Both the position numbers and the translations under genes were made by a program. This document shows, piece after piece, positions 295 through 36,274 of a DNA stretch of 38,192 nt (position 1 is the first letter of the stretch; the number at the start of each line of letters is the position of its first letter). The notes beneath the pieces are model-generated. The model was not told the DNA's origin. It saw only the letters and a program-made list of their open reading frames with translations, and did not search any database. The stretch is from Verrucomicrobiales bacterium (GTDB lineage Bacteria > Verrucomicrobiota > Verrucomicrobiia > Verrucomicrobiales > DEV007), in NCBI GenBank assembly GCA_028281705.1, contig JANQJH010000260.1, positions 1 through 38,192 on the forward strand. Reading direction: 5' to 3'.

Positions 295-3200
295 ATGAAG
301 CGATTCCTTGCCCGCCTGACCGTTGTCTCCCTCGTTTTCGGGGCCCTGGCGTCCCTAATGCAAACTCAAGCCCAGGAGCCTCTGCCTTATGAGGCCGCTT
401 TTGAGATCGATGATGGTTTCCGGATGGGCGATGTCGATGGCCAACGCGGTTTCTCCGTCGTCCGCGGCCAAGCCCAAGTCGTTCCTGACGAAGGCGTTGA
501 GGGCTCTGACAGTCTCAAGCTGCTGCCCTCGCGCCCCTTTGGCATCGTCCAGTTGAGCATTGATGCCGGCTTGGATGACGCCGGCAGCCCGGATAGGGTG
601 GTGCACACCGATTTCATGGTCCGTCCCGGCGCCGTGGAGGCCGCCGAGGGCGATCAGTTCGCCGATGTCGAGGGCAGCCTCACCGGCTTCTTCAAGATTG
701 ACGACCTGGGCGAACTCCACATCTACGACGGCGGTGACGCTGATGCCGCGGGACAATGGCTGCCGTCCGGCGTCCGTTTCGAGCTCGACGAGGCCGGGCA
801 GGCCGTCAACTGGATCCGGCTTTCCTTTCGCCAGGACTTCGAGCGTGGACTCTGGGATGTTGCCATCAACGGCGAGATCTTCCGTGCCAATCTGGCCATG
901 GCCGAGCAGGCCCAGACCCTGGAAAAGATCGAGTTCATCGGCCAGAGCCGTCAACCGCTCTACGTGGACAACGTGCGCGTCAGCCGCGAGGCCACAGCAT
1001 TCGCCGACGCCGACCGCGACGGCATGCCGGATTTCTGGGAGGTCGAGCAGGGTTTGACTGAGGAAGATGGCCGCGATGGCGACAAGGACGGGGACGGTCT
1101 GACCAATATCGAGGAACTCGTTCTTCAGACCAAAGCCCACGAGGCCGATACCGATGGCGACGGTTCCAACGACGGCGATGAGTACGCCTCGGGCACCGAT
1201 CCCAGGGTGGGTGTGGATGCGCCCGAGGAGGCGGCGCTGTCCTGGCCCGGAGCGGGCGGGCTCTCGCTCAATGTCTCACCCTATGGGAGCGGCTATCACA
1301 TGCTCACCGTTTCCTGGAGTAGCTACACGGAATGGAAGATCTGGGTCTACAACAGCTGGGATTATCCTTACGTGTACCGATACATGACCGGGGAGTCCAT
1401 CGGGCAGGGGAGCTCCAATTGGACTGGCGGCACGGACTATGTCATTTCCGCTACGGGAAACGTTGCCTTCATTTATCTCTGGGCCAAGAACCACATGAGC
1501 GGCGGCACAGAGAACTCGGTCCTTTTTAAAGTGAACTCCGGAAGTGGCGGTTCGGTTCTTAGCTCGGGAAGCAGTCTGGGCGGAGGAAACCTGGGTTCCG
1601 AGGAAGCTGCCGAAGAAGCCCTGGACGATTACTGTGACTTTTGCGCCGACTATATGAGTGATAGCGATTGCGATCAGATCAATGTCGGCAGCATCAAGTT
1701 CAGCGTGGGTGTAGGGAAGACGCAGTTCGGGCGCCGTTCGCATGCCCTCGTGGTCCACGAGCAAGGGATCACAGAGCGCTCCTTCTCGCGGGAATCCATC
1801 CACCTAACCAATCCAGAGGATCTCGACGTCGGGCGAAGCATTCCCCGCCCGAAATCCGATCGCGGATTTGTCCCGATTTCCAAAAAAACGGAGCCCCTGC
1901 TCGACTGGGTCAGGACGGACACCCGTTTTGTCAAACTCAACGACATTGTTGGAGGCTATGAGATTCGCAAGTATGCCCTGGATCAGGTCAGCGCAGACAA
2001 CGAACCCACGGGCGATCCCTATGTCGCCATGCGGGTCTATAACCCTGATTATCCGCTTCTGCACGCCGACCACCGGCGTTTGATCATGGAGAAAGCGGAG
2101 GCCGGCCGGACCTCGGTGCACGAATACCGTTATTCGGTGGATGCCGCCTCGGGCCGGGAAACCTGGGAACTGTTTGAGGGCGCCCCCGGCACGCACGTGA
2201 CCCAACCGCTGCGTCTGCGCCGCCTGGTGATCGAAGACCCCGATGCGGCAAATCGCGGCGATTACACCGAGACGCGCACGGTGCATCACTGGAACGCGCA
2301 ATTGGGTGAGCTTGCCCTCGATAGCAAGACGCGGGAGACCTTTCGGCGTTTCCCGTATGGCGCGCGCAAGATCAGCCGGGTGGCCGATCCCGATGGCGAG
2401 GCCCTCACGGTTTCACTGCAATACTACGATGCCGAGGAAAGCGAGTTTCCGGTCACTGGCCGCGTCAAGACCATTCAGTGGGCCGATGGCGATTGGGAAT
2501 ACTACGTCTACGACGAGCAGGGGCGCGAAACGGAAATCTATCGGCCGGCGGGCAACACCCCGCTTCCTCAAGGAAAACCCGAGGGAGGCGTGGGCTACGA
2601 ATCGGCCGTCATCGACTATGACGGGCCAGGCTATCAGTTGAAACGGACGCGTTACCTGGATGGCCACCCGGTGAAGGTCACCTATCAGCGGTGGGACAAG
2701 AACGACATGCAACAGGACCGCCAATTGGTGGAGATCGAAGCCGCCACGGTCACTTCAGGACCGGACGATCCGGCGAACCACGTCACCGTCAGTCGCGAAG
2801 AGGCCGTGACGCGCCGTCCCGTGCATCGTTCCCATCCGGATGGCAGCACGGTCGACTATCGCTATGAACTGATGGGAGCTGATGAACGCAGCACTGTTGA
2901 GCGGCGTGATCGACGTGGCGTGGTCGATAGTATCGAGACCACCTTGCGTCATCCTTCCGGTGCCCTCTTGGAGCGAAAGCGAGTCGATGGCGCCACCGAC
3001 ATCGTCACCGCGCATGAAGTCGTGGGAATGGAGGGGCTCGATACCCGCTTCCGCGCCGTGACCACCGTGGACCATGTTTCGAACCAGATCACCCGCCGCT
3101 CGTACAACTGTTGCGGTCTCGAATGGGTCACCCAGGGAGACGGATCGACGACGAAAAACGAATACGACGTCCTTGGCCGTGTCGTTGCCGTGCAAAGCGG

Positions 3201-6200
3201 CTACAAGTCGCCCTTGGAGCCCGGCAATCAGCTGACCGCGGTGCTGTCTGCCGAGCGCTATCATCTCGATGGTCTCGACCGGGCCTTGCTCACCGAGAAC
3301 ACCCTCGACCCCGGGGATGCCCCGCCGCTGGCGCCCGCTACCGAGCGCTACGACCTTGCCGGGCGAGTCGTGGAATCCGTCTCTACTTCCGGTGTGGCCA
3401 CACGCTCCAAGACCGTCATGCTTCCCGAGGGAGGGCGCGTGGAACTCACCAGTCTACCCCGGAGCGGTCACGACAACCGCCATCGCATCACGGCGCGCCA
3501 GTTCCGTGCCGACGGCCGTTTATATTGCGAGCGGACCTATGCTTCCAGTGAGCCCTTTGGCCTGGAACCGGATCCCCGCACCACGGTCAGCCATCGCGTG
3601 CATCAGGAGGGCATTGATGCCAAAGGCCGCTACAGCGAGGTCATCGATATCGCCAATCTGTTCGATCGTCGCGTGACCCGCACCTATCTCAACGAGCGGG
3701 GACAGACCCGCGAGATCGTCCACGCCTATGGCACGAGCCTGGCGGCGAGCGAACACTTCGAATACAGCCAAGACGGCCAGTTGATCCGAACGGTCGATCC
3801 CGACGGCGTCACCACGCGCTATGGTTACAACGAAAAGGGCCGGCGTTACGTCACGGCGATCGACATGAAGGTCGAGCCCAACGAGCCCGCCGGCCACATC
3901 GACTACGACGTCGATCGCATCACGCGCACCTCCACCGAGCTGGCCACCGATGCCGGAGGACAGCCCATTCGCCGAACCACCACTGAGCGCTTCACCGAAA
4001 GCGGGCCCGTAATCGTTTCCGTGCAGGAACAAGCATTGGATGGCCGTTCGAGCGCCACCATCGAGAACGGCCGCCGTGCTACCCGCCAACGCGTGGAAGG
4101 TGATGGTCCCGGCCGGTGGTCCACGGTGGTCACCCAAGCGGACGGCAGCCACACCATCCAGACGTACGAGAACGGTCGCCTCACGCGCAACGCACGCCAC
4201 GGCTCCGATGGCGCTCTCATCTCGTGGAAAGGGCAGACTTACGATGGGTATGGCCGCGTTTCCGGGATGACGGACGGCCGCACGGGCACGACGACCTTTC
4301 ACTACGACGAGCGTGGCCGCCGATGGAAGATCAGCGCACCGAATCCCGCCACGGGATCGAGTGTCGAGGGCACATTGGACACCATTATTCACTACGATGC
4401 TCTGGGGCGAGCCACTCGCACCACCAAACCTGGTGGAGGGGAAGTGCACCAGGTTTTCAACGCCAACGGGACCCTGCACGGCACGCATGGCCATCACACG
4501 ACCGATGTGAACTACCGCTACAACGGCCGCGGGCAGCGGACACACCTGATCACTTACTACGGAGCGGACAACCAGCCGGCAGAAACCCGGTGGTCCTACA
4601 ACCCACGCGGCCAATTGGCCTTCAAACAAGACGCCCATGGCAAGCGCGCCCACTACACCTACACCCCCGCTGGCAAGTTGAAGACCCGCACCTGGGCACG
4701 AGGTGTGACGACCACCTATCACTACGATGAAGACAATCGCCACGACCTACGAGCGGTCGACTACAGCGACGGCACACCGGACGTCCACTTCACCTACAAT
4801 CGATTGGGCCAAAAATGGTCGGTTCAAGACGCCGGAGGTATCACGACCTACTCCTATCGCCCAGAAGCACCCACCGAATTGCGCTCCGAGACCAGTGGCG
4901 AGAATCTTTACGCCGAGGCCAAAACCCTGACGTATCTCCAAGACGGCTTCGGCCGCCCGGGCGGCTTCCAAATCGGAACGGAAGAGGATCCGGATCAGGA
5001 CTACGCCCTAGGGTTAGGTTTCGACAATGCGAGTCGACTTGAAAGTGTCCACGCTCACGGTTATTGGTTCTACTACGCCTACGAGCCTAACTCCACCACC
5101 GACCGTGTGAAAACCGTGACCGCGCCCTTCGTCAAGCAAACCGAGTTCACTTATGAACACGGGCGCGATACGATTGTCCGTGTGACCAATCGCGTGGGTT
5201 TCAACCCGGACCGGGAGATCGCGCGCTTCGATTACACCAACAACGCCGAGGCCCAGCGCACCGCCCGCACGACCAGTGATGGTGATGCTGGTAACAAGTT
5301 CGAGGATAGGTTCACCTACGATCCGGACACTGGCGGCGTCATTGCTTCCGAACGGGATAACGGCGGGGCTAGTTACGCCTATGCCTACGACAAGATCGGG
5401 AATCGACTGAGCGCCACTGAGAATGGAATGGAGACCCGCTACGAGGCCAACGCGCTTAACCAGTATACCGTAACAGGAGACGAGCATCCGCGTCACGATG
5501 CCGATGGCAACCTCATCGCCAAGGGAGATCGCACCTACGTCTGGGACGGCGAGAATCGCTTGGTCGCCATACGCGAACGCGGCACCTTGGTTGCCGAATA
5601 CACCTACGACCATCAGTCGCGTCGTATCGCCCGCAAGACCCGTGACGGAGTAGATGAGCGTTACCTCTACCAGGGGTGGAATCTGATCGCGGTCTATCGG
5701 CCCGACGAGTCTGAGCCGACGGAGACCTTCACCTGGGGCAAGGACCTCAGTGGGAGCCTGCACGGTGCTGGCGGCGTAGGCGGACTTTTGTTCGCCAACA
5801 TGCGGGATCACCAGAGTGATGCCTGGATCTACCACTACGACGCCAATGGAAACGTCACGGTGGTAACCGATCCGAAAGGTGGCGGTTTAGACCGCTACGA
5901 CTACGATCCTTTCGGTAACCTGCTTGGCGCGCCGCAGCTTCCCAAGAATCGGTGGCGGTTTAGTACCAAGCCAGCGGATCTAGAGAGCGGCTGGTATTAT
6001 TATGGCAACCGATGCTATGAGCCTATTGGCGGCCGTTGGCCGTGTCGAGATCCCAAAGCTGAGTCCGGGGGAACTAACCTATATGCTTTTGTCTCCAACG
6101 ATTCTACCAACCGCATTGATGTGCTTGGACTTGAGCCATGGCCAATTACTCGAGATGGATACGTAAATGCGATCGATAGCGCGATCAATACGCTATCCGG

Positions 6201-6798
6201 CCTTGGGAACAATTCAATAGCATCAGGTAAGCAGCAAGAGGAAAACAATCAAGCGCCGACAGATTATGGGGCGTACAATACAACGGATAACGGGACTATA
6301 AAGATCTATGGTCGAGAATTCGGAGTCACGGTGTATTATTCTTGCCGGCTAGGAGAAACAAGCATATTAGGCGAAACTGGCATCATTAAAGGGTACTTTG
6401 TAGGTCCAGTCATTGTTAGTTCCATGCCGTCTCTAGATCTAGTGAATCAAGGCACATACGGCGTTACTAATATACCTACCGGGTATTGGAGTCAGAAGAA
6501 ATATGCCAAGCCGGACCATCGAAACTTCAGCTCGACGAGACCTGTCAGCTTTCTGCATACACATTTACTAGAAGTTTGGAGACTTAATACAAGTAGTGGA
6601 CAGTATGAGCAAGAGACATTGCCCGTAGGATTAAGTCATGCTGACGCTCTGGCGGTAGCAGGAACACCAGCCGCGGGGACGCCGATTTTTGCGGTTGAGG
6701 TTGACGGAAATACATACTTCAACGACCCCTCAGATATCGAGAACGACCACAAATACAAGCCGAAGCTTCCGCCTTCGTCAGGCTACCCGGATCTGTAA
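295..6798 (+). CDS. Giant secreted RHS/YD-repeat protein with a polymorphic C-terminal tip
   Basis: 2167 residues. Residues 1-26 form a signal peptide ending near QTQA. Residues about 30-235 look like a beta-sandwich (LamG/concanavalin-like) domain. Residues about 238-304 are acidic thrombospondin-type-3-like calcium repeats (DADRDGMPDFW, DKDGDGLTN, DTDGDGSNDGDE). From about residue 560 to 1945 are many YD/RHS repeats such as YDVLGRV, YDERGR, YNPRGQLA and YDPFGNLLG. The RHS core ends in GWYYYGNRCYEPIGGRWPCRDP and then LYAFVSNDSTNRIDVLGL. RHS proteins form a shell that encloses a variable C-terminal domain, often a toxin. Here the last roughly 220 residues follow the core and are encoded by visibly more AT-rich DNA. 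They contain HTH and, 23 residues later, SHAD, resembling the metal-binding pattern of JAB/JAMM or DUF4329-type domains. The ATG at 295 is followed directly by the signal peptide. A GTG-started gene begins 15 bases after the stop, suggesting co-transcription. The toxin role is inferred. Confidence 0.9.
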   Translation: MKRFLARLTVVSLVFGALASLMQTQAQEPLPYEAAFEIDDGFRMGDVDGQRGFSVVRGQAQVVPDEGVEGSDSLKLLPSRPFGIVQLSIDAGLDDAGSPDRVVHTDFMVRPGAVEAAEGDQFADVEGSLTGFFKIDDLGELHIYDGGDADAAGQWLPSGVRFELDEAGQAVNWIRLSFRQDFERGLWDVAINGEIFRANLAMAEQAQTLEKIEFIGQSRQPLYVDNVRVSREATAFADADRDGMPDFWEVEQGLTEEDGRDGDKDGDGLTNIEELVLQTKAHEADTDGDGSNDGDEYASGTDPRVGVDAPEEAALSWPGAGGLSLNVSPYGSGYHMLTVSWSSYTEWKIWVYNSWDYPYVYRYMTGESIGQGSSNWTGGTDYVISATGNVAFIYLWAKNHMSGGTENSVLFKVNSGSGGSVLSSGSSLGGGNLGSEEAAEEALDDYCDFCADYMSDSDCDQINVGSIKFSVGVGKTQFGRRSHALVVHEQGITERSFSRESIHLTNPEDLDVGRSIPRPKSDRGFVPISKKTEPLLDWVRTDTRFVKLNDIVGGYEIRKYALDQVSADNEPTGDPYVAMRVYNPDYPLLHADHRRLIMEKAEAGRTSVHEYRYSVDAASGRETWELFEGAPGTHVTQPLRLRRLVIEDPDAANRGDYTETRTVHHWNAQLGELALDSKTRETFRRFPYGARKISRVADPDGEALTVSLQYYDAEESEFPVTGRVKTIQWADGDWEYYVYDEQGRETEIYRPAGNTPLPQGKPEGGVGYESAVIDYDGPGYQLKRTRYLDGHPVKVTYQRWDKNDMQQDRQLVEIEAATVTSGPDDPANHVTVSREEAVTRRPVHRSHPDGSTVDYRYELMGADERSTVERRDRRGVVDSIETTLRHPSGALLERKRVDGATDIVTAHEVVGMEGLDTRFRAVTTVDHVSNQITRRSYNCCGLEWVTQGDGSTTKNEYDVLGRVVAVQSGYKSPLEPGNQLTAVLSAERYHLDGLDRALLTENTLDPGDAPPLAPATERYDLAGRVVESVSTSGVATRSKTVMLPEGGRVELTSLPRSGHDNRHRITARQFRADGRLYCERTYASSEPFGLEPDPRTTVSHRVHQEGIDAKGRYSEVIDIANLFDRRVTRTYLNERGQTREIVHAYGTSLAASEHFEYSQDGQLIRTVDPDGVTTRYGYNEKGRRYVTAIDMKVEPNEPAGHIDYDVDRITRTSTELATDAGGQPIRRTTTERFTESGPVIVSVQEQALDGRSSATIENGRRATRQRVEGDGPGRWSTVVTQADGSHTIQTYENGRLTRNARHGSDGALISWKGQTYDGYGRVSGMTDGRTGTTTFHYDERGRRWKISAPNPATGSSVEGTLDTIIHYDALGRATRTTKPGGGEVHQVFNANGTLHGTHGHHTTDVNYRYNGRGQRTHLITYYGADNQPAETRWSYNPRGQLAFKQDAHGKRAHYTYTPAGKLKTRTWARGVTTTYHYDEDNRHDLRAVDYSDGTPDVHFTYNRLGQKWSVQDAGGITTYSYRPEAPTELRSETSGENLYAEAKTLTYLQDGFGRPGGFQIGTEEDPDQDYALGLGFDNASRLESVHAHGYWFYYAYEPNSTTDRVKTVTAPFVKQTEFTYEHGRDTIVRVTNRVGFNPDREIARFDYTNNAEAQRTARTTSDGDAGNKFEDRFTYDPDTGGVIASERDNGGASYAYAYDKIGNRLSATENGMETRYEANALNQYTVTGDEHPRHDADGNLIAKGDRTYVWDGENRLVAIRERGTLVAEYTYDHQSRRIARKTRDGVDERYLYQGWNLIAVYRPDESEPTETFTWGKDLSGSLHGAGGVGGLLFANMRDHQSDAWIYHYDANGNVTVVTDPKGGGLDRYDYDPFGNLLGAPQLPKNRWRFSTKPADLESGWYYYGNRCYEPIGGRWPCRDPKAESGGTNLYAFVSNDSTNRIDVLGLEPWPITRDGYVNAIDSAINTLSGLGNNSIASGKQQEENNQAPTDYGAYNTTDNGTIKIYGREFGVTVYYSCRLGETSILGETGIIKGYFVGPVIVSSMPSLDLVNQGTYGVTNIPTGYWSQKKYAKPDHRNFSSTRPVSFLHTHLLEVWRLNTSSGQYEQETLPVGLSHADALAVAGTPAAGTPIFAVEVDGNTYFNDPSDIENDHKYKPKLPPSSGYPDL

Positions 6799-18169: not shown

Positions 18170-18754
18170 CTAACTTTTTCTCAGAAAGCATTCCCAATCC
18201 GGGATGTCGTGGGTATTCTTCAAGAGAAACGTCACCGGAACCTGCCGCGGAGACGAGGGCTCGGCGATCAAGCGCAGTCCCGCCTCGGCCGGAGTCCGGT
18301 CAGCTTTTCGAGTGTTCACCCTTCGGTCGGCCAGGACGCAGTTATCCCACGTCGTCAGACCGCCTCGCGACCGGGGAATGACGTGGTCGATGTTGCCTTC
18401 GCCCGGTTCCAGCGCACGGCCTGTGTACTGACACCGGTTTCCATCGCGTTGCCGCACGGCGCGGAGACTGAACTTCGGCCGCTTCAGAGGCACGCGATTG
18501 TAATTGGCCAGGACCACCACCGTCGGCACGCGCACGGGACCGTGCACCGTGCCGATCGATTCATCCCCGGCTCTCACCGGCAAGGTCTTCCATTTCTCCC
18601 ACGTCGTCGGCACCATGCGGTCTGTCCCATGGATATCGAGCGCCGTGACCACATCCGTCGCCATTTGGGCAAAGGCCATCGCCGGCGGCGTCGTATTGAT
18701 GGCCTGCCAGTTCCGATTGAGAACAAGGACAATGTTTTTATGTAAAGCACTCAT
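18170..18754 (-). CDS. HNH endonuclease
   Basis: 194 residues. The C-terminal half carries the HNH (beta-beta-alpha metal) fold: CQYTGR at 108-113, NIDHVIPRSRGG around 121-132 with the Asp123-His124 pair, WDNC at 136-139 and VNTRKADRTP after it. Many relatives have CxxC in the first knuckle; here the second Cys is Thr, leaving Cys108 and Cys139. The N-terminal 100 residues (VLNRNWQAIN, VVLANYNRVPLKRPKFSLRA) match the long HNH proteins common in bacterial chromosomes and phages. It is likely a DNA nuclease; its biological role is not known. It is on the same strand as the slipin and the tRNA array upstream. HNH genes have been noted beside tRNA arrays in other bacteria, so the link may be meaningful. 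Confidence 0.88.
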   Translation of the reverse strand: MSALHKNIVLVLNRNWQAINTTPPAMAFAQMATDVVTALDIHGTDRMVPTTWEKWKTLPVRAGDESIGTVHGPVRVPTVVVLANYNRVPLKRPKFSLRAVRQRDGNRCQYTGRALEPGEGNIDHVIPRSRGGLTTWDNCVLADRRVNTRKADRTPAEAGLRLIAEPSSPRQVPVTFLLKNTHDIPDWECFLRKS

Positions 18755-18943: not shown

Positions 18944-19732
18944 TCAGTCCTTGGATACGGCTGTGGCCAACCGCACCACATCCTCCGGCAAGCCGATATA
19001 GAGAGCGTTGTTGTATCCGGATCCCAACTCTTTCAGGGTGTCGAGATAACGCATACGCAAGAGTTCCGGATTGTTCTCGAACACGCGTGCGGCGTTCGCC
19101 ATGGTGCGCAGGACGGCGGCATCTCCTCGCGCCTTCTCCTGCTTGGCTTGGGCCTCTTTGCGCGACGTCAAGACACTGGAGAGCGCGCTCTTGAGTTCGC
19201 CACCCAGCATGAGATCCCGCAGAACCACTCGCTTGATCTCGATTCCGAGCGCCTCCGTCACCAGATTGGCCCGCACGGATTCAAGCAAGGCCACGGCGAA
19301 TCCCGCCTTTTCCGCCAAGATGACATCCAGCTCCAGGGCGCCCAAAACTTCGCGCAGGGCGAGCTGGACCTGGGTGTAAAGCGCCTGCCGCCCGTCTTCC
19401 ACCGCCTCGTGGAACTTCCGGGCATCGTCGACCCAATAGTGGACCACGGCAGACAACTTGAGCGTGGCCGAATCGGCCGTGATCAGTTCCTGGCCCTGGA
19501 CCACGAGTTCGATCACCCGCTTGTCGAAGGCGACCACCGAATGGCCCGTTCCCCAGAGGCGGTGCATCCCGGGCTCGAGGGTCCCGGCATACTTGCCGTT
19601 CTTGTAATGCAGGACTGTCTGAAAATCCCAAACCAACACCCGCTGGGTGAATCGGTTCCATAGCATGGTGGCGATCACGCAGATCAAGAAGATCGCCAGG
19701 CTAAGCGAAATGATTAGGTTCATGGTGTTCAT
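18944..19732 (-). CDS. Slipin-type SPFH/band 7 membrane protein
   Basis: 262 residues. Residues about 5-24 are one transmembrane helix (NLIISLSLAIFLICVIATML). The band 7 domain follows, with GMHRLWG, VAFDKRVIELVVQGQELITA, LKLSAVVHYWVDD and a heptad-rich segment ending VLTSRKEAQAKQEKARGDAA. Relatives (stomatin, slipin) form membrane-bound oligomers that organise proteins and membrane domains. Partner proteases of the NfeD type often lie next to such genes but none is seen here. The nearest upstream genes on the same strand are the tRNA array, 225 bases away; a T- and A-rich stretch (ATTTTAACACAATC) about 30 bases before the start may include its own promoter. Two ATG codons three residues apart are possible starts. 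Confidence 0.88.
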   Translation of the reverse strand: MNTMNLIISLSLAIFLICVIATMLWNRFTQRVLVWDFQTVLHYKNGKYAGTLEPGMHRLWGTGHSVVAFDKRVIELVVQGQELITADSATLKLSAVVHYWVDDARKFHEAVEDGRQALYTQVQLALREVLGALELDVILAEKAGFAVALLESVRANLVTEALGIEIKRVVLRDLMLGGELKSALSSVLTSRKEAQAKQEKARGDAAVLRTMANAARVFENNPELLRMRYLDTLKELGSGYNNALYIGLPEDVVRLATAVSKD

Positions 19733-19957: not shown

Positions 19958-20027
19958 AAGTTTGGCTGGAATCGAACCAGCTACCTCTGAGTTCAAGTCA
20001 GATGCTCTACCATTGAGCTACACGGGT
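19958..20027 (-). pseudogene. tRNA-Ser(TGA)-anticodon, class I, acceptor stem broken
   Basis: D-arm GCTC-AATGGTA-GAGC, anticodon arm TCTGA-CTTGAAC-TCAGA (anticodon TGA) and T-arm GCTGG-TTCGATT-CCAGC are all intact. The variable loop is only four bases, unlike normal class II tRNA-Ser. The 5' acceptor ACCCGTG does not pair with the 3' sequence CAAACTT beyond the first two inner pairs and the outermost one. No CCA is encoded. It is the last unit in the direction of transcription, and its 3' side runs into tRNA debris, so the end was probably lost by recombination. G18-G19 and T55 are canonical. Confidence 0.7.
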
Positions 20028-20125
20028 TCATCACCCGGTTTCCGAACCGATAGGCGGGACCCATCCGGGATACCTTCCGGGCCGCGCGGTTTCGAAAGTG
20101 TCCTTCTTGCAAGAGAAAAGTGAAT

Positions 20126-20200
20126 TGGCATCCAGGGATGGACTTGCACCACCATCTTCGGTTTCAGAGACCGATGTCCTCACTCTTGAACGACCTGGAC
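20126..20200 (-). tRNA. tRNA-Gln(CTG), variant elbow
   Basis: Acceptor GTCCAGG pairs fully with CCTGGAT (one G-T). The D-arm is GTTC/GGAC with loop AAGAGTGA. The anticodon arm is TCGGT-CTCTGAA-ACCGA. The T-loop is TGCAAGT, with G at position 55. Discriminator G fits Gln. CCA is encoded. D-loop position 18 is A, followed by G19. Confidence 0.9.
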
Positions 20201-20216
20201 GATGAAAGAAAAGAAG

Positions 20217-20288
20217 CATCCCCGGCGGGAATCGAACCCGCGACTACAGATCGAAAGTCTGTCGTGCTTGCCACTACACTACGGGGAC
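20217..20288 (-). tRNA. tRNA-Glu(TTC), canonical elbow
   Basis: Acceptor GTCCCCG pairs with CGGGGAT. The anticodon arm is ACAGA-CTTTCGA-TCTGT. The T-arm is GCGGG-TTCGATT-CCCGC, with normal T54-T55-C56, and the D-loop has GG. Discriminator G fits Glu. No CCA is encoded (CTT follows). Confidence 0.93.
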
Positions 20289-20305
20289 ACATCAAGGAAA
20301 GGGAA

Positions 20306-20381
20306 TGGCGCCCCTGGAAGGATTCGCACCTTCATTCTCCGGCTTCAAAGGCCGGCGCATCGACTGTTCTGCCACAGGGGT
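20306..20381 (-). tRNA. tRNA-Gln(TTG), variant elbow
   Basis: Acceptor ACCCCTG pairs with CAGGGGC except for an A1-C72 mismatch. The anticodon arm is CCGGC-CTTTGAA-GCCGG. The D-loop contains AACAG (A18-G19) and the T-loop is TGCGAAT (G55). Discriminator G and encoded CCA are present. It sits seven bases from tRNA-Lys. Confidence 0.88.
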
Positions 20382-20387
20382 GAAAAT

Positions 20388-20463
20388 TGGTGGGCCCGGA
20401 GAGACTTGCACTCTCACCCGGCGGATTAAAAGTCCGCTGCTCCCCTATTTGAGCTACGGGCCC
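20388..20463 (-). tRNA. tRNA-Lys(TTT), variant elbow
   Basis: Acceptor GGGCCCG/CGGGCCC is perfect. The D-arm is GCTC-AAATAGGG-GAGC. The anticodon arm is GCGGA-CTTTTAA-TCCGC. The T-arm is GAGAG-TGCAAGT-CTCTC with G55. Discriminator A fits Lys, and CCA is encoded. Confidence 0.93.
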
Positions 20464-20491
20464 GATGGATCGGATTCGATCACGGAGAAAA

Positions 20492-20589
20492 TGGCGAAGC
20501 CCTGAGGGCTTGCACCCCATCCAGCACTCGGCTTGGCTGGACCCTTCGATTAGCAATCGATGCCGGCGCGCTTGTCCGGTTAAAGCTCC
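20492..20589 (-). tRNA. tRNA-Ser(GCT), class II, variant elbow
   Basis: Acceptor GGAGCTT pairs with GGGCTTC through several G-T pairs. The anticodon loop is TTGCTAA. A true long variable arm is present (TCCAGC pairing with GCTGGA), as required for Ser. The D-loop contains ACAAG (A18-G19) and the T-loop is TGCAAGC (G55). Discriminator G and encoded CCA are present. Confidence 0.88.
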
Positions 20590-20606
20590 GCAAAATACGG
20601 AAAGAT

Positions 20607-20683
20607 TGGTAGCCACGGTGGGATTCGCACCCACAACCTCCGGTTTCTAAGACCGGCGCCTCTGCTAGTTGGGCTACGTGGCC
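20607..20683 (-). tRNA. tRNA with Leu anticodon TAG but class I shape
   Basis: Acceptor GGCCACG pairs with CGTGGCT. The anticodon arm is CCGGT-CTTAGAA-ACCGG, giving anticodon TAG, which reads the Leu codon CTA. The variable loop is only AGGTT, whereas bacterial tRNA-Leu has a long arm. The D-loop has AACTAG (A18-G19) and the T-loop is TGCGAAT (G55). Discriminator A and encoded CCA are present. Which amino acid it would carry is unclear. Confidence 0.85.
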
Positions 20684-20728
20684 GTTCTGCTTGGTGGCCA
20701 GGGCCACCGAGCTAAAAATAGGGAGGGA

Positions 20729-20804
20729 TGGTGCTCACGGCGGGATTTGCACCCGCACTGAACCGGTTTTAAGCCGGCTGCCTCTGCTCTTGGGCTACGT
20801 GAGC
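20729..20804 (-). tRNA. tRNA with Leu anticodon TAA but class I shape
   Basis: Acceptor GCTCACG/CGTGAGC is perfect. The anticodon arm is GCCGG-CTTAAAA-CCGGT, anticodon TAA, reading TTA. The variable loop is TCAGT, so again no class II arm. The D-loop has AAGAG and the T-loop is TGCAAAT (G55). Discriminator A and encoded CCA are present. It resembles the neighbouring TAG tRNA and is probably a duplicate of it. Confidence 0.86.
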
Positions 20805-20815
20805 AATCCAAAAAA

Positions 20816-20891
20816 TGGTTCCTCCGGCCGGCGTCGCACCGGCATGGTCTCCTTTACGAGAGGAGTGCCTTTCTTTCTCGGCCACAGAGGA
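20816..20891 (-). tRNA. tRNA-Thr(CGT), variant elbow
   Basis: Acceptor TCCTCTG pairs with CGGAGGA. The anticodon arm is CTCCT-CTCGTAA-AGGAG. The T-arm is GCCGG-TGCGACG-CCGGC. The D-loop is A-rich with AAAG and lacks GG. Discriminator A and encoded CCA are present. Confidence 0.9.
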
Positions 20892-20909
20892 TCAGATCAT
20901 CATTCATTT

Positions 20910-20981
20910 GACTTCCGGCAGGATTCGAACCTGTAACCTCCTGGTTCGAAGCCAGGCGCCCTTCCATTGAGCTGCGGAAGC
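20910..20981 (-). tRNA. tRNA-Arg(TCG), canonical elbow
   Basis: Acceptor GCTTCCG pairs with CGGAAGT. The anticodon arm is CCTGG-CTTCGAA-CCAGG. The D-loop is AATGGA with G18-G19 and the T-loop is the normal TTCGAAT. The T-stem has one A-C mismatch at its base. No CCA is encoded; the discriminator would be C, which is unusual for Arg. Confidence 0.88.
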
Positions 20982-20994
20982 ATTCAAGTCGTCA

Positions 20995-21110
20995 AGTTAG
21001 CTGCCGCCGCCGTCTCTGGAACACAACCCGCCCCAACCTAGACGACGGCAAGATGCCCCATTGAACTCCCTCCCCCGGGAGCTCCGCATCATTGACCGCG
21101 GCGGCTAACT
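20995..21110 (-). ncRNA. Structured 116-nt element inside the tRNA array
   Basis: On the minus strand AGTTAGC pairs with GCTAACT as a perfect 7-bp outer stem, extended by CGCCGC/GCGGCG past a small bulge. Inside are three more helices: GAGCTCCC/GGGAGTTC around a GGGGGA loop, GGCA-TCT-TGCC, and GCCGTC-G-TCT pairing with AGA-GACGGC. Part of the GCCGTC helix and the outer extension compete for adjacent bases. The overall form is a four-helix junction with a tRNA-like 7-bp closing stem, but no T-arm or anticodon arm can be assigned. It fills most of the only long gap within the array. It could be a heavily altered tRNA or a separate RNA. Confidence 0.5.
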
Positions 21111-21160
21111 ATTCTTCAACATTCGCTCGTCCATGAGCGAAACTTCAGAATCAAAAGGAT

Positions 21161-21234
21161 TGGTGCGTCATGCCGGTGCCGCCCCGGCGTCGCCTGGGTG
21201 GAAGCCAGGAGTCATGCTGTTAGACCAATGACGC
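21161..21234 (-). tRNA. tRNA-Gly(TCC), strongly variant T-loop
   Basis: Acceptor GCGTCAT/ATGACGC is perfect. The D-arm is GTC/GAC with loop TAACAGCAT. The anticodon arm is CCTGG-CTTCCAC-CCAGG. The T-arm is GCCGG-GGCGGCA-CCGGC: T54 and T55 are both G, while C56 is kept. Discriminator A differs from the U usual in bacterial tRNA-Gly. CCA is encoded. Confidence 0.88.
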
Positions 21235-21244
21235 AAAAGAATGG

Positions 21245-21320
21245 TGGAGCCTCCCGTGGGTAACGCTCCCACCATCCTCGGATTTGCAATCCGGGCCGTT
21301 CACTTGCTCGGTCGGGAGGC
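21245..21320 (-). tRNA. tRNA-Cys(GCA), strongly variant T-loop
   Basis: Acceptor GCCTCCC/GGGAGGC is perfect. The D-stem is CCG/CGG. The anticodon loop is TTGCAAA. The T-arm is GTGGG-AGCGTTA-CCCAC, with A54-G55-C56. Discriminator T is the specific Cys identity base. CCA is encoded. Confidence 0.92.
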
Positions 21321-21355
21321 TCAAACTCGATGGATCACCGCCACCGTGTGAAAAA

Positions 21356-21430
21356 TGGGCTGGTCAACGGGATTTGCACCCGTACAGGCGCCGTCACAGG
21401 GCGCAATGCTGCGATTACATCATGACCAGC
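21356..21430 (-). tRNA. tRNA-His(GTG), variant elbow
   Basis: Acceptor CTGGTCA/TGACCAG is perfect. Base -1 is G and the discriminator is C, the G-1:C73 pair required by bacterial HisRS. The anticodon arm is GCGCC-CTGTGAC-GGCGC. The D-loop is TAATCGCAG (C18-G19) and the T-loop TGCAAAT (G55). CCA is encoded. Confidence 0.94.
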
Positions 21431-21446
21431 ATCTCTTCTTGAAAAA

Positions 21447-21520
21447 TGGTGTCCCCGCCAGGATTCGCACCCGGTCCGGCTCCTTCGCACGAAGCCATGC
21501 CTCTCTTACACCACGGGGAC
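21447..21520 (-). tRNA. tRNA-Arg(GCG), variant elbow
   Basis: Acceptor GTCCCCG/CGGGGAC is perfect. The anticodon arm is GCTTC-GTGCGAA-GGAGC, anticodon GCG. Bacteria normally read CGN codons with ACG changed to ICG, so GCG is unusual. The D-loop has AAGAG and the T-loop is TGCGAAT (G55). Discriminator A and encoded CCA are present. Confidence 0.88.
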
Positions 21521-21561
21521 GTCGCTTCATCCAATCGCTGAATGAAAACGAAAATGAAAAA

Positions 21562-21635
21562 TGGCGGCCCATGCCGGTTACGCTCCGACGTCCTCTGTTC
21601 GACAGACAGAGATGTTACGATTACACCAATGGGCC
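21562..21635 (-). tRNA. tRNA-Asp(GTC), strongly variant T-loop
   Basis: Acceptor GGCCCAT/ATGGGCC is perfect. The anticodon arm is TCTGT-CTGTCGA-ACAGA. The D-loop is TAATCGTAA (C18-G19). The T-arm is GTCGG-AGCGTAA-CCGGC with A54-G55. Discriminator G fits Asp, and CCA is encoded. Confidence 0.92.
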
Positions 21636-21657
21636 TCACCCAAACCAAAAAAGAAAT

Positions 21658-21731
21658 TGGCGGCCGCCAGGGAGTTGCACCCTTCCCTCCGGCTCTTCAA
21701 GCCAGCGCTCTCCTGCGTGAGCTAAGCGGCC
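21658..21731 (-). tRNA. tRNA-Phe(GAA), variant elbow, T-stem one base short
   Basis: Acceptor GGCCGCT pairs with GGCGGCC. The D-arm is GCTC-ACGCAGGA-GAGC. The anticodon arm is CTGGC-TTGAAGA-GCCGG. The T-arm is AGGG-TGCAACT-CCCT, only four base pairs, because one base is missing before the acceptor. Discriminator is G instead of the usual A for Phe. CCA is encoded. Function is less certain than for its neighbours. Confidence 0.82.
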
Positions 21732-21774
21732 AGGAACGAAGCTAGGGCAAGGTTGCCCGCAGCCTTCAATATCA

Positions 21775-21849
21775 TGGCTCCCCCACTTGGATTCGCACCA
21801 AGAACTCAGGCCTTAACAGGGCCGTGTGATACTCTTTCACCACAGGGGA
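21775..21849 (-). tRNA. tRNA-Asn(GTT), variant elbow
   Basis: Acceptor TCCCCTG pairs with TGGGGGA. The D-arm is GTGA/TCAC with A18-G19. The anticodon loop is CTGTTAA on a GGCC/GGCC stem. The T-arm is CTTGG-TGCGAAT-CCAAG. Discriminator G fits Asn, and CCA is encoded. Confidence 0.92.
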
Positions 21850-21859
21850 TCAAATGAAA

Positions 21860-21949
21860 TGGTAGAGGCTGGTGGTAATGCACCACTCGTCCACTTCCGG
21901 CCTTCTTTAACGACGGCGGGTTTACAGTCCGCTGGCCGGATCAGCCTCT
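21860..21949 (-). tRNA. tRNA-Tyr(GTA), class II with truncated D-arm
   Basis: Acceptor AGAGGCT/AGCCTCT is perfect. The anticodon loop is CTGTAAA on the stem GCGGA/CCCGC, with an A-C mismatch at the loop end. Only eight bases (TCCGGCCA) lie between positions 9 and 27, so the D-arm is missing or must share bases with the anticodon stem. A long variable arm (CGTC to GACG) is present as expected for Tyr. The T-loop is TGCATTA. Discriminator A and encoded CCA are present. Confidence 0.8.
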
Positions 21950-21967
21950 TCAAAACAGAAAATGGAA

Positions 21968-22039
21968 TTGCGGGGGAGGGAATCGAACCCTCGGCACTTG
22001 GCTTATGAGACCAAGCTAAGTTCCATCACTTTCCCCGCA
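21968..22039 (-). tRNA. tRNA-Met(CAT), canonical elbow
   Basis: Acceptor TGCGGGG/CCCCGCA is perfect. The anticodon arm is TTGGT-CTCATAA-GCCAA. The D-loop has GG and the T-arm is GAGGG-TTCGATT-CCCTC. No CCA is encoded. There is no C1-A72 mismatch and no run of three G-C pairs in the anticodon stem, so it is not a standard initiator. A lysidine-modified Ile tRNA cannot be excluded. Confidence 0.88.
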
Positions 22040-22054
22040 CAAAACTTAAAAAAA

Positions 22055-22131
22055 TGGTCGCGCCGGCAGGACTCGCACCTGCTTTCTCGTACTTCCAAGG
22101 TACGCGTCTCGACACCTTCGACCTCGGCACG
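22055..22131 (-). tRNA. tRNA-Pro(TGG), variant T-loop
   Basis: Acceptor CGTGCCG pairs with CGGCGCG. The D-stem is GTC/GAC with loop GAAGGTGTCGA. The anticodon arm is CGTAC-CTTGGAA-GTACG. The T-arm is GCAGG-TGCGAGT-CCTGC (G55). Discriminator A and encoded CCA are present. It is the one G55 tRNA in which a GG in the D-loop can still be aligned to 18-19. Confidence 0.9.
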
Positions 22132-22161
22132 TGAATACATTCATAAAAAAAGGAAATCTCT

Positions 22162-22232
22162 CATGCCGCCCCGGTGCTGCCCCGAGTCCTTCCGGTTTTG
22201 GAGACCGGAATGCACAAGCTGGTGCGCGGCAT
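22162..22232 (-). tRNA. tRNA-Trp(CCA), strongly variant T-loop, first in the array
   Basis: Acceptor ATGCCGC/GCGGCAT is perfect. The anticodon arm is CCGGT-CTCCAAA-ACCGG. The T-arm is CTCGG-GGCAGCA-CCGGG (G54-G55). The D region is short, with GCAC/GTGC pairing around CAGCTT. Discriminator G fits Trp. Unlike the other G55 tRNAs, CCA is not encoded (AGA follows). It is the promoter-proximal gene of the array. Confidence 0.87.
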
Positions 22233-33547: not shown

Positions 33548-36274
33548 GTGACCAAGCTCCTAAATTGGTTGCTCGCGCACCACCGCGTGTCCTTCTTGGC
33601 GGTGTTTGTCTTGACCCTAGCCTTCGCACCAGGCGTCCCGCGGATCTCCTTTGACACCTCGGCCAACATGCTGGTGCAGGAGGATGATCCTCAGCGCGTG
33701 TTCTACGATGAGGCCCGCGAGACTTTTGGTGACGATCTTATCCTGTCGATCGTGGTCAAGTCCGATCACCTCTTTAGCCCTCCCCTGCTGGCCGCCATCG
33801 AACGCATCACCGGCGCCGCAGAATCCATTCCCGGGGTCAACCGGGTTGTTAGCCTCTCCACCGTGAGCGATCTTCGCGGACGGGACGGATTCCTCGAGAC
33901 AGACTATCTCGTCCCCTCGATACCGGAAGACGAAACCGCGGCTGCGGAGATCCGGACGAACGCGCTGGGCAATGACCTCTTTCAAGGAGAAGTCATCTCC
34001 AAAGACGGCCGGACCACGGCGGTTAATCTCTTCGTCGCGGACGACCCGGCGAACAGACAGTTCAATCAACAGCTGGTCGATGCCGTCGAGCAGATCTTGC
34101 AAAGGGAACGCAAGATTCTCGGTCGGGAGGTCGAACTCTACCAGGCTGGAAACTCCGTCCTCAAGGTCTCAATGCTCCGCAGTATTCGGCGAGACATGAC
34201 GCTGCTCTTGCCCGTGGCCTTCGTCGTCGTTTTCGCCACCATCTTCTTTCTCTACCGCCGCGGAAGTGCCGTCGTCATCCCTCTCGTTACCGGAACGATC
34301 AGTGTCATCATCACCGTCGGGTTCATGGGCTATGCCGGGATCCCCTTCAATCCCATCACTGCCATCATCCCAATCCTTCTCGTGGTCATCGGTGCCACCG
34401 AAGATATCCATCTGATATCGGAACACGGCCTTGCCCTCTCCAGGGGAAAAATCGGCCGGGCAGCCGTCGAATCCATGAATGCCAAAGGCGGTCTGGCGGC
34501 GCTGCTCACCGCGCTGACGACCTTCCTGGGCTTTGCCACCATCATTGGAAACGCGATCCCGGCACTGCGCGATTTTGGCATCGCAGCCTCCTTCGGCATC
34601 GCCATCAATTTCGTCGTTACCATCGCCACGGTGCCGCCTCTACTCTTGCTCCTCTCGCCACGTGGAGATCACCCGACTCGTGCCGGTGGCGACCGGCAAG
34701 CACCGTGGCTCCTCCGATCAGCCCGATTTGTCGCGCGATTCGGAACCCGCCATCGCTCCACCGTCATCGCGTTGGCTTTCCTCCTCGGAATCCTGTGCCT
34801 CCTGGCCTCGCAGAGAATCGTGGTCAATACCAACTACCTCAGCTTTTTCCATGAGGACGCCCCGCTCCGGCGCTCGTTTGAGGACATCAGCGAACAACTC
34901 GCCGGCGCCAACAGTTTCTATGTTGTCATCAATACCGGGGAAGAAGATGGCCTCAAGAATCCGGCGACCCTCAAGGCCATCGCCGGACTGGCAGACTTCC
35001 TTTCCAATCGGGCCGACAAGGTCTCCGGCTTCCCCTTTCTCATTCGCAAAGCGCACCAGGAAATCAACGACGGCGACACCACCTTTCATCGTATCCCCGA
35101 CACCACCGAACTCATTGCGCAGTATAGCATTTTGCTCAACCAGGATGACCTCGATCGCTTTGTCTCGCCCGATTTCTCCAGCACCTGCCTCTTGGCCCGA
35201 ACGAACGAAGCCGGCTCCCTTCATCTGCGAATGCTTGCGAACGAGATCAACGGCTATGTCGAAGCACATTTCCCTCGCGGTTTGGAGGCTGCCGTCACCG
35301 GTGAACTGATCCTCGTGGCCAACGGCTCTGACCAAATTGCCGAAGGCATCTGGTACAGCCTGGGCTTCCTCCTCCTCGCCGTCTTTGTCGTCATCTCTCT
35401 CCTCTTTTGGTCCCTCAAGGCCGGTCTCCTCTCCATGATCCCAAACATCATCCCAGTCATGGTCAATTTCGGAGCCATGGGATTGCTCGGCATCCAACTC
35501 GGGCCTGGCACTTTCTCCGTCGCCATGATCGCCTTTGGGATTGCGGTGGATGACACCATCCATTTCATGGCTCGTTATCTCAAGGAGCTAAAGACCACCG
35601 AGACCGACACCGAAGCGGTCGAGAGTTCCGTGATGAAAGAGTTCCGGCCGGTGCTCGCCTCGACCGTGGCCTTGGTCGCCGGTTTCCTCGTTCTGTCCTT
35701 CTCGGAGTTCGCCTCGACCGCAGAGTTCGGGATCCTGGCCGCTACCAGTCTGGCAGCAGCCCTCATCAGCGATCTCTTTCTCGCGCCCGCCGTGATTGGC
35801 ACCGTGCCGCTCATCTCGTCGTGGGATTACCTCTTGCTCAAGATCAGTCCGGACCGTCTCCGCCAGAGTCAGATCTTCAAGGGCTTGAAGCCATCCCAGA
35901 TTCGGAGGATGGCGCTCACGGGAAGCTTGCTCACGGTGAACCAAGGTGAAACCGTCATCCGCCAGGGTGACTTGGGATCCGATGTCTATTTCATCGTTGA
36001 AGGCCGAGCCAGGGTTCTCATGACCGAGGCCGATGGGTCTGGCGAACGCACCCTGGGCGAATACCAGCGAGGTGATCTCTTCGGTGAAATGGCCTTCATC
36101 ACCGGCGAACCTCGAAGTGCGACCGTCGTCGCAGTAAACGACTTGGAGCTTCTTCGAATCGATGAGCAAGCCCTCAATCGAGTCCGCCAAAACTATCCGC
36201 GGATCGCCCTGGTCTTCTTTCACAATCTCTCGCATCTCTTGAGCGAACGGCTGAAGCGAACGAATCAACAATAA
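33548..36274 (+). CDS. RND/MMPL-family transporter fused to a C-terminal cyclic-nucleotide-binding domain
   Basis: 908 residues with a GTG start. Residues 1-770 form a hydrophobe/amphiphile exporter of the RND (HAE-3/MMPL) type: an N-terminal helix, a periplasmic loop, a five-helix bundle containing GATEDIHLISE (about 281-291), a second periplasmic loop and a second bundle with FGIAVDDTIHFMARYLKEL (about 660-685). Residues about 776-900 are a cNMP-binding/CAP-like domain with VNQGETVIRQGDLGSDVYFI, VEGRARVL, RGDLFGEMAFITGEPRSATV and LLRIDEQAL. In such domains the GEMA-RSA segment binds the phosphate of cAMP or cGMP, and it is well kept here. The fusion suggests nucleotide-controlled export. 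Confidence 0.92.
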   Translation: MTKLLNWLLAHHRVSFLAVFVLTLAFAPGVPRISFDTSANMLVQEDDPQRVFYDEARETFGDDLILSIVVKSDHLFSPPLLAAIERITGAAESIPGVNRVVSLSTVSDLRGRDGFLETDYLVPSIPEDETAAAEIRTNALGNDLFQGEVISKDGRTTAVNLFVADDPANRQFNQQLVDAVEQILQRERKILGREVELYQAGNSVLKVSMLRSIRRDMTLLLPVAFVVVFATIFFLYRRGSAVVIPLVTGTISVIITVGFMGYAGIPFNPITAIIPILLVVIGATEDIHLISEHGLALSRGKIGRAAVESMNAKGGLAALLTALTTFLGFATIIGNAIPALRDFGIAASFGIAINFVVTIATVPPLLLLLSPRGDHPTRAGGDRQAPWLLRSARFVARFGTRHRSTVIALAFLLGILCLLASQRIVVNTNYLSFFHEDAPLRRSFEDISEQLAGANSFYVVINTGEEDGLKNPATLKAIAGLADFLSNRADKVSGFPFLIRKAHQEINDGDTTFHRIPDTTELIAQYSILLNQDDLDRFVSPDFSSTCLLARTNEAGSLHLRMLANEINGYVEAHFPRGLEAAVTGELILVANGSDQIAEGIWYSLGFLLLAVFVVISLLFWSLKAGLLSMIPNIIPVMVNFGAMGLLGIQLGPGTFSVAMIAFGIAVDDTIHFMARYLKELKTTETDTEAVESSVMKEFRPVLASTVALVAGFLVLSFSEFASTAEFGILAATSLAAALISDLFLAPAVIGTVPLISSWDYLLLKISPDRLRQSQIFKGLKPSQIRRMALTGSLLTVNQGETVIRQGDLGSDVYFIVEGRARVLMTEADGSGERTLGEYQRGDLFGEMAFITGEPRSATVVAVNDLELLRIDEQALNRVRQNYPRIALVFFHNLSHLLSERLKRTNQQ

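Follow-up and report, generated by a model that had tools for sequence, protein, structure and literature searches.

Dense transfer RNA (tRNA) arrays with near-complete anticodon sets, embedded or adjacent HNH endonuclease genes and a location on mobile DNA have been described in mycobacteria and in their phages and plasmids (Morgado and Vicente, PMC5966550; Yano et al., PMC12803027), and the accessible portions of these papers mention no elbow change. In Anabaena and Nostoc, a plasmid-borne trn operon is repressed by TrcR, induced by translational stress and co-regulated with HNH, slipin and rtcB genes (PMC10272220). RtcB, Ro60 and RlaP are parts of known RNA-repair operons such as rtcBA and rsr-yrlBA-rtcBA; one is switched on by tRNA halves, and the Salmonella operon responds to tRNA fragments (PMC7790460). 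The array analysed here lies on contig JANQJH010000260.1 of a Verrucomicrobiales bacterium (assembly GCA_028281705.1), the whole 38,192 nucleotides of which are called the window. The window array and its relatives resemble these mycobacterial, phage and plasmid arrays in their density, their anticodon sets and the nearby HNH gene, and most units of the window array replace the elbow contact between G18 and pseudouridine 55, which is treated as near-universal.

On the minus strand of the window, from 22232 to 19958, 21 tRNA units form a high-density, multi-isotype cluster of 2.3 kb. G55 is found in 17 of them (Trp, Pro, Tyr, Asn, Phe, Asp, Arg(GCG), His, Cys, Gly, Thr, Leu(UAA), Leu(UAG), Ser, Lys, Gln(UUG) and Gln(CUG)), which therefore lack the U55 of the canonical elbow, defined by G18–U55 together with U54–A58. 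Fifteen of these 17 units carry A or C at position 18; the exceptions are Pro, which keeps GG, and Tyr, whose D domain is too short to align. The four units with U55 (Met, Arg(UCG), Glu and a truncated unit) all have G18–G19. These counts were given in a preliminary description of the DNA and hold when the sequence is read by eye and with a cloverleaf scanner. The T-loop signature given there, TGC in place of TTC, is correct for most G55 units; Trp and Gly instead carry GGC, and Cys and Asp AGC, with U58, and positions 58 and 60 are also altered in these four units.

The scanner, which was written for this analysis, scores stems, U33, the 53–61 pair, C56, R57 (a purine), A14 and A21, and ignores positions 18, 54, 55 and 58. 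It recovered 19 units of the window array; Ser(GCU) and the truncated UGA unit were added by reading the sequence, Ser and Tyr units being under-detected by this method. ARAGORN called 14 units, and Rfam model RF00005 matched 14 at E < 1e-5, with the Met unit at E = 0.071; the Cys unit matched the tRNA-Sec model below that model's cutoff. The best score in ten shuffles of the array region was 18.6, compared with 20.5–38.2 for the real units, and 2.04 Mb of shuffled related loci gave zero matches at the cutoff used. As these shuffles yielded no match and positions 18 and 55 are unscored, a scanner artefact is ruled out. The units, all on the minus strand, are as follows.

22162..22232, minus strand: tRNA-Trp(CCA); T-loop GGCAGCA (G54 G55 C56), degenerate D-arm; scanner
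22058..22131, minus strand: tRNA-Pro(UGG); T-loop UGCGAGU, D-loop GG kept (exception); Rfam and scanner
21968..22039, minus strand: tRNA-Met(CAU); canonical U55 and GG, degenerate D-arm; ARAGORN and scanner
21863..21949, minus strand: tRNA-Tyr(GUA); G55, very short and degenerate D domain; scanner score 20.5, the weakest unit
21778..21849, minus strand: tRNA-Asn(GUU); A18–G19 and G55–C56, G73 CCA; Rfam and scanner
21660..21732, minus strand: tRNA-Phe(GAA); D-loop ACGCAGGA, G55; Rfam and scanner
21565..21635, minus strand: tRNA-Asp(GUC); C18–G19 and A54–G55–C56, G73; Rfam and scanner
21450..21520, minus strand: tRNA-Arg(GCG); A18 and G55; ARAGORN and scanner
21359..21429, minus strand: tRNA-His(GUG); C18 and G55, C73; Rfam and scanner
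21248..21320, minus strand: tRNA-Cys(GCA); A18 and A54–G55–C56, U73; tRNA-Sec model below cutoff, and scanner
21164..21234, minus strand: tRNA-Gly(UCC); A18 and G54–G55–C56; Rfam and scanner
20910..20981, minus strand: tRNA-Arg(UCG); canonical elbow; Rfam and scanner
20819..20891, minus strand: tRNA-Thr(CGU); A18 and G55; ARAGORN and scanner
20732..20804, minus strand: tRNA-Leu(UAA), type I variable loop; A18 and G55; Rfam and scanner
20610..20683, minus strand: tRNA-Leu(UAG), type I variable loop; A18 and G55; Rfam and scanner
20495..20589, minus strand: tRNA-Ser(GCU), long variable arm; G55, D-loop without GG; read from sequence, below scanner threshold
20391..20463, minus strand: tRNA-Lys(UUU); A18 and G55; Rfam and scanner
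20309..20381, minus strand: tRNA-Gln(UUG); A18 and G55; Rfam and scanner
20217..20288, minus strand: tRNA-Glu(UUC); canonical elbow; Rfam and scanner
20129..20200, minus strand: tRNA-Gln(CUG); A18 and G55; Rfam and scanner
19963..20022, minus strand: truncated tRNA-like unit with UGA anticodon; canonical elbow, acceptor stem unpaired; Rfam model positions 6–65 only

The host assembly comprises 8.3 Mb in 678 contigs and is 91% complete. Its other contigs yielded 30 ordinary tRNAs, a set from which some isotypes are missing, and every one has D-loop GG and T-loop UUC. An organism-wide tRNA habit is thereby ruled out, and the concern raised at the outset, that such loops might be common among the organism's ordinary tRNAs, is answered. 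The genome also encodes TruB, so that ordinary tRNAs should be modifiable at position 55 and the G55 units of the array should not.

Related arrays were gathered with an alignment of 21 HNH sequences, which led to 80 genome loci, assigned by their labels to Verrucomicrobiota or the broader PVC group, and to 53 IMG/VR loci; together with loci collected earlier and the window, these contain 756 distinct tRNA units. As the loci were gathered through the HNH gene, linkage to that gene is built in and the counts give no prevalence. D-loop GG occurs with U55 in 171 units and is absent with G55 in 517, while 45 units combine GG with G55 and 8 combine U55 with no GG (Fisher p 3e-113, indicative only since the units are related). 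In most of the 45, the GG lies outside positions 18–19, as in AACAGGA. Among the 261 units with 7-nt D-loops, for which numbering is unambiguous, A18–G55 is found 187 times, G18–U55 52 times, G18–G55 13 times and A18–U55 never. When base 18 is assigned by rule, it is A in 481, C in 17 and U in 8 of the units with G55. Both elbow states occur in 19 isotypes (all except Ser), for example in Glu (25 canonical, 21 swapped), Met (13 and 12) and Gln (14 and 35), and 228 swapped units from 19 isotypes have a canonical counterpart of the same isotype with at least 72% identity outside the elbow. On one 529-kb IMG/VR contig (L239), a swapped Leu(GAG) adjoins canonical Leu(CAG) and Leu(CAA) units. Bases 18 and 55 thus change together in many isotypes and arrays, as had been proposed from the window, and the elbow swap is shared by Verrucomicrobiota at large and by phages, far beyond the window. 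An exact Leu D-arm pattern matched 3 of 388 genomes of the phylum, although such patterns gauge prevalence poorly. Glu(UUC) keeps a canonical elbow in many otherwise swapped arrays (L066, L067, L068 and L108).

The G19–C56 pair is present in 242 of the 261 pooled array units with 7-nt D-loops, and C56 (about 96%) and R57 (more than 99%) are kept even when no T-loop scoring is applied. Position 56 is altered in 30 units, in 27 of which the D-loop supplies a Watson–Crick partner after the 18-like purine; when D-loops were shuffled among the 30 units in 2000 trials, the mean was 14.7 and the maximum 24. Recoded swapped elbows on IMG/VR contigs L212 and L210 include A18–C19/G55–G56, A18–A19/G55–U56 and A18–U19/G55–A56, and position 19–56 is also recoded alongside a normal 18–55 pair (G18–C19/U55–G56 in L182; G18–A19/U55–U56 in L202). 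U54–A58 is replaced by A–U, G–G or C–A, usually along with A60. This replacement, together with the compensation at 19–56, indicates that the elbow is rebuilt rather than lost. The L1 stalk, RNase P and T-boxes stack on the 19–56 pair, whereas 18–55 is an internal pair with a single hydrogen bond (PMC4810234). Since factors dock on the pair that is kept, swapped tRNAs may still function.

Isotype identity bases are conserved in the 491 swapped units examined: Cys U73 in 31 of 31, Asp G73 in 22 of 22, Asn G73 in 18 of 18, Leu A73 in 63 of 64, Pro C1–G72 in 27 of 28, Ala G3–U70 in 7 of 8, and A73 in all Ile, Lys, Val and Pro units. For the window, the preliminary description had reported perfect acceptor stems and fitting discriminators; the identity elements are indeed kept, while the truncated unit has no paired acceptor stem and the Phe discriminator is uncertain. 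Its proposal that these tRNAs can be charged is in keeping with the conserved bases, from which swapped units would be predicted to be substrates for their synthetases. U33 is retained in 91% of swapped units, and four arrays of 28, 30, 28 and 33 units have as many distinct anticodons as units. By their anticodons, swapped arrays look like near-complete spare decoding sets.

Decay into pseudogenes is ruled out by the conserved identity bases, the stereotyped change and its recurrence in 19 isotypes, and the earlier preference for selection over decay is borne out. Re-moulding of one founder tRNA into all isotypes is weakened as an explanation, because isotype-specific identity bases are kept and close canonical counterparts of the same isotype are common. 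The nearest canonical unit has the same isotype for only 176 of the 491 swapped units (null mean 26), so that some isotype re-moulding inside arrays may have contributed. Two further features of the decoding sets were observed. In phage array L212 (4902–7706), 8 of 28 tRNAs lack the universal U33 and mostly have C33, a departure from universal tRNA features that goes beyond the elbow. In bacteria, tRNA-Leu normally belongs to type II. Of the 64 swapped Leu units in the arrays, however, 62 are type I, with a variable loop of 4–6 nt, and type I Leu tRNAs also occur in the arrays of Nostoc and M. avium.

Two genes lie downstream of the window array on the same strand.

18944..19732, minus strand: slipin-like SPFH/Band_7 protein, directly downstream of the array; Pfam PF01145, 2.8e-26
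18170..18754, minus strand: HNH endonuclease; Pfam HNH_4, 1.9e-7; orthologues mark tRNA arrays in Verrucomicrobiota and phages

Within the order, several genomes have HNH orthologues with 53–65% identity next to tRNA arrays, and the loci closest to the window HNH gene are labelled Verrucomicrobiota, mostly Verrucomicrobiales. The HNH protein is judged unlikely to be an elbow-specific tRNase, as it accompanies canonical arrays too and has a domain that most resembles Cas9/IscB-type HNH. Of 28 bacterial loci that span at least 9 kb and contain 5 or more swapped units, 20 encode RtcB, RlaP or TROVE/Ro60 and 11 encode a slipin. In a 27.5-kb IMG/VR contig (L183), genes for RlaP, HATPase, TIR, RtcB and HNH are co-directional and accompany a 28-unit array with G55 in 27 of 28 units; TROVE/Ro60 proteins are encoded in L108 and L143. 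A family of 250–300-amino-acid proteins without a Pfam match recurs in the repair/array loci (L183 2475–3371, L134 7119–7880 and L108 9912–10730). L143, from Brevifollis gellanilyticus, has a largely swapped array, and L134, from Roseibacillus persicicus, a mostly canonical one.

The genes around the window array are of chromosomal type, and its relatives lie on both phage and bacterial contigs. Phage hallmarks beside swapped arrays include a Mu-F-like protein, major capsid protein and terminase on L212 (58 kb), a terminase on L217 (191 kb) and a portal on L221 (82 kb). L230 (131 kb) has 33 units, 32 of them with G55, and showed no match to the terminase or portal families tested. Plasmid arrays of Mycobacterium avium, Methylibium and Acidiphilium, which accompany more distant HNH genes, have canonical elbows except for a few changes at position 54 (18 UUC and 1 AUC in M. 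avium). In Nostocales arrays, Glu(CUC) and Ile(GAU) units have G55, mostly with A18, each in 4 of the 5 plasmids examined.

It is proposed, with about as much confidence for as against, that the array is a set of spare tRNAs linked to tRNA damage and RNA repair. Their elbows would fold through an alternative contact and so escape both elbow modification and attackers that read the elbow. The module would consist of the tRNA array and HNH gene, often with slipin, RtcB, RlaP and Ro60, would be patchily distributed and probably mobile, and would be expressed in response to tRNA damage or translational stress. The array tRNAs, with their acceptor identity bases, anticodon loops and exposed 19–56 pair kept, would be chargeable and usable on ordinary ribosomes. 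Inside the elbow, G18–U55 would be exchanged nearly always for an A18–G55 contact, often with changes at 54, 58 and 60, which could take neither pseudouridine 55 nor Gm18 and would lack the usual T-loop signature. The most likely purpose would be to provide spare tRNAs that need no elbow modification and that make poor substrates for factors checking the normal elbow, and so sustain translation once ordinary tRNAs have been inactivated. Phages may carry similar arrays to go on translating under host defences that target tRNA. The idea of a back-up set, already raised in the preliminary description, gains from the one-tRNA-per-anticodon composition of the larger arrays and from the RNA-repair genes linked to them in relatives. 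Escape from elbow-reading factors fits a change common to many isotypes and to phage arrays.

Several observations weigh against this proposal. We know of no factor that reads the 18–55 elbow. The depletion of modifiable bases in swapped units extends beyond modified sites, with U43–45, U60 and A21 dropping too. Glu, Arg(UCG) and Ser often remain canonical, and the His discriminator varies in swapped units (12 C73, 16 A73 and 5 U73). RtcB, RlaP and Ro60 are not encoded in the window, and RlaP and TROVE were not found in its genome, which is 91% complete; the host RtcB is a weak match only, on another contig, so the repair link rests on relatives. Many phage arrays with an orthologous HNH gene are mostly canonical, and some (L192, L202 and L208) can be wholly so, which implies that arrays can function without the swap.

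Among described tRNA-directed systems, Cas12a3 makes its contacts with the CCA end and with the backbone of the T-arm (PMC12851939), and the described escape of phage tRNAs concerns the anticodon loop (PMC10264068). A stronger version of the spare-set proposal holds that A18–G55, sometimes with recoded 19–56 and 54–58, is a second, interchangeable tRNA elbow code, preserved by selection in mobile back-up translation kits that bacteria and large phages carry, because a widespread tRNA-inactivating effector reads the standard elbow of all isotypes. It is put forward tentatively, with appreciably less than even confidence. Protection from a reader of the normal elbow, as first suggested, is plausible, yet function without elbow modification fits about as well, because the changed positions 18, 54, 55 and 58 are those that bacteria modify.

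That competing explanation requires no attacker: spare tRNAs made in bursts or in foreign hosts would outpace the elbow enzymes, and selection would have removed G18, U54, U55, A58 and other modified sites. Bacteria modify the elbow at positions 18, 54, 55 and 58 (PMC7912444), and in swapped units U55 is fully depleted, G18 almost fully, and U54 and A58 by a third. Milder depletion affects U8, U47, D-loop U and U39, and for the positions so tested it persists after stratification by isotype and GC content. The 31–39 pair flips from A–U to U–A (share 0.64 to 0.35), which takes U off the TruA site, and C56, R57 and G53–C61, which are unmodified in bacteria, stay strict. Position 65, the TruC site, shows no flip, some unmodified sites drop as well and A37 rises, so modification independence appears only partly supported. 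Moreover, canonical phage arrays evidently work without the swap, and unmodified canonical tRNA transcripts form the elbow too (PMC7912444). As the sole cause, modification independence is considered a doubtful, though serious, candidate.

Compensatory drift in a rarely used set, in which relaxed selection alters one elbow base and its partner follows to restore folding, would account for the degenerate D-arms of the window Trp, Met and Tyr units and for the lower conservation of U8, A14, A21 and position 48 in swapped units. It sits poorly with a new state as stereotyped across isotypes and phages as the base-18 counts show, with the strictness of C56, R57, G53–C61, U33 and the identity bases, and with the rarity of intermediates, and is regarded as improbable.

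It is very unlikely that spare aminoacyl-tRNAs feed a non-ribosomal pathway, as staphylococcal cell-wall tRNA-Gly does. That tRNA lacks G18–G19 and has T-loop UGC; it is a single isotype, whereas whole sets are found here with G19–C56 kept. The preserved anticodon loops, U33, identity elements and G19–C56 speak against use outside normal translation, which the preliminary description had offered as an option, and the near-complete sets, with one unit per anticodon, point to decoding; no peptide ligase or Fem-like gene was found among the neighbours tested. Equally remote is the idea that the T-arm DNA changed to abolish sites for integrases or homing, with the D-loop then adjusting solely to preserve RNA folding: tRNA genes are common integration sites and HNH genes adjoin the arrays, but orthologous HNH genes adjoin canonical and swapped arrays alike.

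HNH-associated tRNA arrays are already known, and no description of the elbow swap was found in the literature that could be reached, which lacked key tRNA-operon and RNA-damage papers. Nostocales arrays contain at most 2 swapped units each, whereas the window array and many relatives are mostly swapped. The RNA-repair operons share RtcB, Ro60, RlaP and slipin genes, in combination, with the relatives of the window (PMC7790460); they differ in carrying Y RNAs instead of a tRNA array, and the window itself has only slipin and HNH. Phage tRNAs evading tRNA-targeting defence are likewise phage-borne and thought to replace inactivated host tRNAs, but their changes affect the anticodon loop or a single isotype (PMC10264068, PMC11555353), in contrast with the elbow of most isotypes here.

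Against the background of a near-universal G18–pseudouridine 55 contact, hundreds of natural tRNAs from many isotypes and from phages carry a coordinated replacement. The elbow can evidently be rewired while the charging determinants and the docking pair stay, and the swap makes it testable whether the universal elbow serves folding, modification or reading by many factors. If the arrays resist tRNA-inactivating immunity, they may lead to effectors that read the elbow; if their tRNAs work unmodified, they could supply useful parts for engineering modification-independent tRNAs.

Within the array lies one further structured element.

20999..21117, minus strand: structured 119-nt element inside the array; fold z-score -4.4

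It has no Rfam match and no homologue in the related loci fetched. The truncated UGA-anticodon unit (19963–20022) forms the 3′ edge of the array and is perhaps a relic or an integration scar. Elsewhere in the window, positions 295–6798 encode a very large protein (2167 amino acids) with YD/RHS-like repeats, as judged by eye, and positions 33548–36274 encode an MMPL transporter with a fused cyclic-nucleotide-binding domain.

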